From contig NZ_SWKP01000003.1 of assembly GCF_005871165.1 (NCBI RefSeq), positions 434,001 to 498,000 on the forward strand: a DNA stretch of 64,000 nt, written 5' to 3'. Under the pieces are notes generated by a model. It was given only the letters and a program-made list of their open reading frames with translations, was not told the origin of the DNA and ran no database searches. The stretch comes from Maricaulis alexandrii (lineage in GTDB: Bacteria > Pseudomonadota > Alphaproteobacteria > Caulobacterales > Maricaulaceae). This document shows positions 891 to 2,350 of the stretch, piece after piece. A program made the translations under genes and the position numbers. Each line of letters opens with the position of its first letter. Position 1 is the stretch's first letter.

Positions 891-2045
891 CTATTCCGCC
901 ACGCTGACCCGGTCGATCGCATCGGCCGCGTAACAACCCAGCAGCTTGATCTCCCGGGTATGCTCCTCCAGCACCGACATGGACTCCCGGATGGCCTTGT
1001 CTTCGACATGGCCCTCGACATCCATGATGAACATCTCTTCCCAGGGATTGCCGGCAATCGGCCGGGATTCCAGCTTCACCAGATTGATGCCATGGTCGCG
1101 GAAACCCAGCAGGGCATCGACAAGACAGCCCGGCGTGTCGCGCGTTGTGAACATCATGGAGGTCTTGCTCTCCACTTCCCGCGTCGGGAAGGAGGTCTTG
1201 CGGCCGATCACGATGAAACGGGTGATATTCTGTTCGTGGTCACCGATGCCGCGCTCCAGGATATCCATGCCGAACAGGCGGGCTGCGTCTTCACCGGCCA
1301 CGGCACAGGCGGTGTCATCATCCTCCAGAAGCCGCTCCAGCGCCCGCGTGGTGGAAGCTGCCATATGCGTTTCCAGCTCCGGATGGGAGGCAATGTAGCG
1401 GCGGCACTGGGCCAGCGCCTGCGGGTGACCATAGACGCGGTTGAGACGCCCCTGCCCGCTGGCCTTGCCGACCAGGCAGTGATCCACGCGCAGGAAGAAT
1501 TCACCGATGATCTGGGTCTTGGAATTGATCAGGATGTCATAGACTTCATTGATCGAACCGGTGGTCGTGTTCTCGATCGGGATCACGCCGAAATCCACTT
1601 CGGCATTCTCGACAGAGCGGAAGATCGAGACGAAATCACGCTTGGGCGACGGGACGACGGTCGCATTGCGCCGCTCGAAGACCTTCTGGGCCGCGATATG
1701 GCTGTAACTGCCCGGCCCGCCGAGATAAGCGACGCTGGCCTCATTGAGCTCCTCATTGCGCATGCTGTCGAAGCGTTCGCGCTGGCGGCGGATGGAAATC
1801 TCGAACAGGTCCTGGAACAGGTTCTCGACAACCTTGTCCGGCACGCCCTTTTTGCGGCCCAACTCCAGAGCTCCGCGCAAAACCGCTTGCTCGCGCTCAC
1901 GGTCACGAACGGGCTGTCCGCTGCGCACCTTCGCCTCGAGGATTTCCTCGACCAGTTCCGACCGCCGTGCAATCGCTTCGATCAACTGCCGGTCGATCGC
2001 CGAAATCTCGTCCCGGATCTCGTCCCGGCTCTTCCCACTCGCCAT
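891..2045 (-). CDS. pheA: Chorismate mutase / prephenate dehydratase (P-protein)
   Basis: A 384-residue bifunctional enzyme that converts chorismate to prephenate and then to phenylpyruvate, the committed route to phenylalanine. Residues 1-92 form an AroQ-type chorismate mutase helix bundle (AIDRQLIEAIARRSELVEEI). The prephenate dehydratase domain follows, with VAYLGGPGSYSH near residue 105, IENTTTGS near 160 and the catalytic TRF motif in ITRFIVIG. A C-terminal ACT domain carries ESRP in LVKLESRPIAGNPW, the phenylalanine feedback-binding motif. Start at ATG 2045, preceded by AAGGAC. Transcription appears to be controlled by the attenuator and leader peptide just upstream, in addition to allosteric feedback through the ACT domain. 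Confidence 0.95.
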   Translation of the reverse strand: MASGKSRDEIRDEISAIDRQLIEAIARRSELVEEILEAKVRSGQPVRDREREQAVLRGALELGRKKGVPDKVVENLFQDLFEISIRRQRERFDSMRNEELNEASVAYLGGPGSYSHIAAQKVFERRNATVVPSPKRDFVSIFRSVENAEVDFGVIPIENTTTGSINEVYDILINSKTQIIGEFFLRVDHCLVGKASGQGRLNRVYGHPQALAQCRRYIASHPELETHMAASTTRALERLLEDDDTACAVAGEDAARLFGMDILERGIGDHEQNITRFIVIGRKTSFPTREVESKTSMMFTTRDTPGCLVDALLGFRDHGINLVKLESRPIAGNPWEEMFIMDVEGHVEDKAIRESMSVLEEHTREIKLLGCYAADAIDRVSVAE

Positions 2046-2070
2046 GATGCTCGTCCTTCATTCAGGCAAA

Positions 2071-2100
2071 AGAAAAGGGCCTCCCCGTGGGGGAGGCCCT
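2071..2100 (-). terminator. pheA attenuator terminator
   Basis: A perfect 11-bp stem (AGGGCCTCCCC / GGGGAGGCCCT on the minus strand, 3-nt loop, 2076-2100) is followed by TTTTCTTTTG. It lies between the leader peptide stop and the pheA start, so it would stop transcription before pheA. The segment GGGGGCGGTGGCC, inside the leader ORF near 2132-2145, can pair with the 5' arm (GGCCTCCCCC, one T-T mismatch and one bulge) as an antiterminator. It can also pair with the preceding CCACGCAACCC as a protector hairpin. Confidence 0.85.
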
Positions 2101-2125
2101 GGTAAACTCGTCGCTTTCGCGCGCG

Positions 2126-2197
2126 TCAGCCGGCCACCGCCCCCAAACGGGTTGCGTGGGTAAAATAGCCAGCAAAATAAAACGTCGCGAAAGTCAT
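2126..2197 (-). CDS. pheL: Phe/Tyr-rich leader peptide of the pheA attenuator
   Basis: A 23-codon ORF on the minus strand that begins MTFATFYFAGYF: four Phe and two Tyr among the first 12 residues, then a stretch without aromatics. It has AAGGTG about 5 nt before its ATG and ends with TGA at 2128-2126. Directly downstream come a possible antiterminator, the rho-independent terminator and pheA. Stalling at Phe codons when charged tRNA-Phe is scarce would cover the protector arm, free the antiterminator and allow read-through. This is the classical arrangement of amino-acid biosynthetic attenuators. No clear promoter could be assigned in the roughly 100 bp upstream. Confidence 0.82.
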   Translation of the reverse strand: MTFATFYFAGYFTHATRLGAVAG

Positions 2198-2297
2198 GCC
2201 GGCACCTTGGCGGCGGTTTCACGCAAGGTCAATGCGCAAAACCCGAAACATGCAGTGGGTGGTGCAAGAAATGTGTTCGCCCTGTGATGCGCGGTAC

Positions 2298-2328
2298 AAA
2301 AAAGGGGCCGCCGGAGCCGCCCCTTTTT
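2298..2328 (-). terminator. lon terminator
   Basis: Just past the lon stop codon, the minus strand reads AAAAAGGGGC, a GC-rich loop region, then GCCCCTTTTTT. It is a strong rho-independent terminator for lon and separates lon from the pheA leader. Confidence 0.85.
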
Positions 2329-2350
2329 CCAAACGCTTGAGGCCAGCCGC

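Follow-up and report, generated by a model that had tools for sequence, protein, structure and literature searches.

The window analysed here is a 64,000-nucleotide stretch of the Maricaulis alexandrii contig NZ_SWKP01000003.1. On its minus strand, we found the gene order lon (ending at 2351), a candidate transcription attenuator and pheA (2045-891). The product of pheA is a chorismate mutase-prephenate dehydratase (CM-PDT) fusion, and the PheA proteins of 14 relatives (13 of them Maricaulis) are 70-97% identical to it. The initial annotation, made from the sequence alone, had placed a 23-codon leader ORF, a terminator and competing hairpins before pheA, and all of them lie at the positions it had given. 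In the direction of transcription, the features are the following:

2227 to 2232, minus strand: promoter -35, TTGACC; TTGAC 35-37 nt upstream of the leader ATG in 46/46 leaders
2204 to 2209, minus strand: promoter -10, CAAGGT; NANNNT hexamer 17-18 nt from TTGAC in 45/46
2126 to 2197, minus strand: leader ORF, 23 codons and stop TGA; aromatic-rich leader in 46/51 family CM-PDT genomes
2149 to 2159, minus strand: segment 1, protector partner of segment 2; pairing in 99.3% of cells, 19 Maricaulis leaders
2132 to 2144, minus strand: segment 2, GGGGGCGGTGGCC, common to protector and antiterminator; nearly invariant in 19 leaders
2090 to 2100, minus strand: segment 3, terminator left arm and antiterminator partner of segment 2; 89.6% paired, 36-56% when slid
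2076 to 2100, minus strand: intrinsic terminator hairpin, 11 pairs; 100% paired, compensatory pair in 6/19
2067 to 2075, minus strand: U-rich tail of the terminator, the sequence after the hairpin
2059 to 2054, minus strand: probable pheA Shine-Dalgarno, GAAGGA, outside the terminator hairpin
891 to 2045, minus strand: pheA, ATG at 2045; Pfam CM_2 and PDT, with ACT just under its cut-off

The leader ORF (2197-2126, stop codon 2128-2126) encodes MTFATFYFAGYFTHATRLGAVAG, with the four Phe (codons 3, 6, 8 and 12) and two Tyr (codons 7 and 11) originally described for it. A search for PheA in 61 genomes (that of the window included) and in 137 family genomes found the CM-PDT fusion in 51 family genomes, 19 from Maricaulis and 32 from seven other genera; after these, E-values drop from 1e-103 to 4e-47. 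A complete leader with its terminator precedes pheA in 46 of the 51 (Maricaulis 19/19, g4 2/2, g5 13/14, g8 2/6, g10 1/1, g13 1/1, g14 6/6 and g15 2/2). Loss of either part in close relatives was the finding that had been named in advance as telling against an attenuator, and all 19 Maricaulis genomes have both. At G078, a contig end cuts the locus, leaving the end of the leader and a hairpin with a U-run visible. The leader is missing at the fused pheA of four of the 51 genomes: G025, G079 and G080 (g8) and G115 (g5). In the three g8 genomes (loci L072, L071 and L073, respectively), the fused pheA lies behind lon without an attenuator, and TTGCTGCACCTGCTAAC, a stretch that these loci share in front of pheA, may act as a substitute promoter.

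Where pheA is not fused, none of 34 loci (L027, L029, L074-L102 and L119-L121) gave an acceptable leader; they are a best-scoring, uneven sample with distances counted from the match and not from a curated gene start. Three of these loci (L079, L083 and L084) have an ORF with 3 Phe codons that lacks TTGAC at the distance expected. No other leaderless leader was seen in the M. alexandrii genome upstream of trpE, ilvB or two HMGL-like genes; this is a weak test, ilvB being internal to an operon and gene starts having been taken from the match.

The 46 leaders are 18-25 codons long, and all have at least three Phe plus Tyr codons; Phe occurs in 46/46 and Tyr in 45/46, while Trp codons are absent (0/46). 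An aromatic-rich short leader ORF and a terminator are found together before pheA in 46/46. Phe makes up 14.6% of the leader codons against 3.6% in long ORFs of the window, and Tyr 9.8% against 2.4%, the reference being an uncurated set of 22 of the 34 long window ORFs with GC3 over 0.7. The rare codon TTT is favoured, accounting for 43 of the 62 Phe codons in the 19 Maricaulis leaders versus 12% in the reference ORFs.

Upstream of the leader, the window reads TTGACC (2232-2227), 17 nt, CAAGGT (2209-2204), 6 nt and then the leader ATG (2197). Across the 46 leaders, 39 of which were detected without any part played by the promoter and 7 by a rule that included it, TTGAC starts 35 nt (21 leaders), 36 nt (13) or 37 nt (12) before the ATG (in 22/46, another in-frame ATG lies near the leader start and the ATG fitting the promoter was chosen). 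The NANNNT hexamer follows TTGAC after 17 nt in 31 leaders and 18 nt in 14, and ends 6 nt (23) or 7 nt (22) before the ATG; L107 is the only leader with no matching hexamer. All 45 hexamers begin with C and have C or G as their fifth base (CANNST), neither being required by the search. The window has 344 ORFs that start with ATG and span 15-30 codons, and two of them have TTGAC 34-38 nt upstream: the pheA leader, with six Phe plus Tyr codons, and another ORF with three. A TTAAC motif, which we take to resemble a CtrA half-site, stands about 13 nt before the leader TTGAC in six loci (L013, L014, L015, L017, L018 and L019), in five of them as GTTAACC.

This promoter bears directly on how the leader would be translated. 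The initial annotation had assigned AAGGTG (2208-2203) as the Shine-Dalgarno sequence of the leader, but this hexamer overlaps the promoter -10 (CAAGGT, 17 nt past TTGACC) and is not conserved. The same attenuator with an ordinary 5' UTR and this ribosome site would account for AAGGTG standing 5 nt upstream of the ATG in the window and in L002 and L003, the two nearest relatives. However, these are the only 3 of the 46 leaders with AAGG or even AGG at -16 to -5, AGGA, GGAG or GAGG occur there in none (0/46), and the -35/-10 pair keeps its fixed distance from the ATG in 45/46. We therefore reject AAGGTG as the ribosome site and consider that version of the attenuator very unlikely. With a -10 that ends 6-7 nt before the ATG in 45/46 leaders, transcription would start on or beside the ATG itself, likely at or next to 2197 in the window. 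Considering this geometry, together with the lack of a conserved Shine-Dalgarno, the leader mRNA is probably leaderless. Such mRNAs are common in Caulobacter, 375 of them being reported for C. crescentus (PMC4117421).

The terminator is as first described, a perfect hairpin of 11 pairs (2100-2076) followed by TTTCTTTTGC. Upstream of it, segment 1 (about 2159-2149) pairs with segment 2 (about 2144-2135) in a protector hairpin, and GGGGGCGGU of segment 2 pairs with (G/A)CCUCCCCC of the terminator left arm to form the antiterminator. Both alternative pairings proposed by the initial annotation can thus form, although in registers slightly different from its own. The 135-nt leader folds better than 200/200 shuffles (z = -4.9). 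In an alignment of the 19 Maricaulis leaders, on which the covariation tests are based, the terminator covaries, a G-C pair having changed on both sides to A-U in 6/19, and 0/500 shuffles did as well. The antiterminator is paired in 89.6% of cells versus 36-56% in slid registers, and its covariation is not above that of shuffles (score reached by 81/500, pairing by 29), a limited test since little variation is expected in a strand that has to pair with two partners. No two-sided change was found for the 1:2 hairpin in these 19 leaders; 99.3% of its cells are paired. Mean identity among the 19 is 0.84 for leader codons 11-23, 0.88 for the terminator, 0.35 from the tail to pheA and 0.63 for pheA codons 1-15, the figures for the flanks being too low owing to variable spacing and a poor alignment of the upstream part.

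We also folded the leaders with a virtual ribosome that masks 15 nt past the first P-site base, taking the pairs between the leader and the terminator left arm as the measure of the antiterminator. For the window, 8.4 such pairs are predicted when Phe12 occupies the A site and 0.1 when the stop codon does. Over the 46 leaders, the median is 8.0 pairs in the stalled state versus 0.5 at the stop codon, and the stalled state exceeds the other by more than 2 pairs in 46/46, the stalled value being the highest among the three final aromatic codons, a choice that favours the stall. For L023, L024, L048, L049, L051 and L052, it is an earlier aromatic codon that fits, the last one lying too far downstream. 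In these calculations, the antiterminator excludes the terminator depending on ribosome position in 46/46 leaders. Two leaders retain pairs with the ribosome at the stop codon (L004, 5.6; L020, 6.1). Without a ribosome, the antiterminator has 0.2 pairs in the window, 10.4 in L007 and a mean of 4.9 over 25 leaders; basal termination is not uniformly predicted, since the antiterminator forms ribosome-free in several of them. The shuffle controls are weak, 20/200 shuffles of the window reaching its pairs and 23/200 its energy, with 10-75 and 0-76 of 200, respectively, for 12 leaders taken singly.

Just after lon, there is a further U-tailed hairpin (2298-2329, minus strand), which a consensus terminator scan did not list and which is probably the terminator of lon itself. 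As lon lies on the same strand and ends at 2351, the hairpin before pheA might be read as a plain lon terminator preceded by a small ORF that arose by chance. Against this, lon is already followed by a U-tailed hairpin of its own (about 2329-2298), a promoter and a conserved leader ORF lie between that hairpin and the pheA terminator, and 46 genomes share the leader ORF with its aromatic codons and the terminator. We reject the pheA-leader hairpin as the lon terminator and regard this explanation as extremely improbable.

Judging from sequence comparison, we consider the attenuator to be real and pheA to be its probable target; we put the probability that this is a ribosome-mediated transcription attenuator with a leaderless leader ORF at about 90%. 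Attenuation of pheA by ribosome stalling, as initially proposed, appears well supported by the comparison (46/51 genomes, with the predicted folding switch in 46/46). For the start site, the ribosome stalling and the amino acid response, we infer the following scheme. Transcription would begin on, or immediately next to, the A of the leader start codon, and ribosomes would then initiate on the 5'-terminal AUG with no Shine-Dalgarno. When charged Phe-tRNA is plentiful, the ribosome would reach the leader stop codon and cover segment 2, segment 3 would pair with segment 4, and the polymerase would halt ahead of pheA, near 2067. A shortage of charged Phe-tRNA (perhaps Tyr-tRNA also) would make the ribosome wait at the aromatic codons, above all Tyr11-Phe12, and cover segment 1, leaving segment 2 and segment 3 to form the large antiterminator, and pheA would be transcribed.

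The initial annotation suggested that the leader may respond to tyrosine too, an idea to which the codon counts lend some support. We lean towards a leader that senses phenylalanine only, with Tyr codons that tune speed or are tolerated. In G061, PheA is the sole CM_2 protein found and the leader has three Phe and no Tyr. A Corynebacterium glutamicum aroF leader with Tyr-Phe is reported to answer limitation of Phe and not of Tyr (PMC11802643), which calls for caution on tyrosine sensing. On the other hand, Tyr is enriched about fourfold, as Phe is, and present in 45/46 leaders, and the leaders of L056, L057, L060 and L062 have two Tyr and one Phe. Since the enrichment of Tyr is about as strong as that of Phe, tyrosine sensing is possible, and a PheA mutase that may feed both pathways would suit Tyr codons in the leader; that the leader senses Phe and Tyr together, with the chorismate mutase of PheA feeding both pathways, is nevertheless the less likely reading in our view.

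The other CM_2 proteins are relevant here. In the M. alexandrii genome, prephenate dehydrogenase is a separate protein and only one other CM_2 protein was found besides PheA. This other protein is nearest to an isochorismate lyase model (64 bits), followed by the general CM-like subfamily (45 bits) and the named mutase models (31 bits or less), all below cut-off. We compared 69 family genomes with a completeness of 95% or more. Unfused genera mostly have two CM_2 matches, of which one is small and the other lies in an open frame of about 240-310 aa (G109, G154 and G082 depart from this). Fused genera mostly have PheA and one small CM_2, the frame of about 240-310 aa being mostly absent (exceptions: G003, G015 and G084 with three CM_2, G061 with one). 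In L117 and L118, from two genomes with unfused pheA, a CM_2 domain stands at the start of an ORF of about 270-310 aa.

The closest known counterpart is pheL-pheA of Escherichia coli (Rfam RF01859, Phe_leader), which likewise has a leader with Phe codons, a terminator, an antiterminator and a CM-PDT pheA. In contrast, the Maricaulis leader is rich in Tyr as well and has no Shine-Dalgarno; the E. coli pheL peptide is not known to contain Tyr. The window matches Phe_leader over the full model length at 27.5 bits (E 0.0066), against a gathering score of 55, and no match was found in the loci of 14 relatives at E up to 0.5; membership of a known Rfam family at gathering score was rejected. Matches of the hairpin to ctRNA_p42d, below cut-off, and of L058 to Trp_leader (28.8 bits, cut-off 41) were taken as terminator or attenuator likeness. 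Regulation of E. coli pheA attenuation by charged Phe-tRNA is reported (PMC11802643).

Within the Alphaproteobacteria, the trp attenuator RNA of Sinorhizobium meliloti (rnTrpL) begins with the trpL ATG, according to PMC7298713 and PMC10117765, the start that we propose for Maricaulis; trpL-trpE(G) differs in responding to tryptophan, in its 14-aa peptide (peTrpL) and in the gene involved. The C. glutamicum aroR-aroF system shares a mixed Phe/Tyr leader before an aromatic biosynthesis gene (PMC11802643 and PMC4046766), but it belongs to an actinobacterium, controls another gene and is reported to respond to Phe limitation only. By analogy, the mode of action may be that of the enterobacterial pheA attenuator, and the start that of S. 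meliloti trpL. Both the leaderless attenuator and the mixed Phe/Tyr leader have been described separately. In the parts of the open PubMed Central literature covered, we found no alphaproteobacterial pheA attenuator, including Maricaulis, and the main survey, which lies outside that scope, may list one; nor did that open-access literature yield the combination of a leaderless and mixed Phe/Tyr leader before a CM-PDT pheA.

The pheA attenuator of this alphaproteobacterial family is an addition that Rfam 15 misses at cut-off. Its probable leaderless design is kept across eight genera, and the attenuator probably switches pheA on when the cell is short of phenylalanine.
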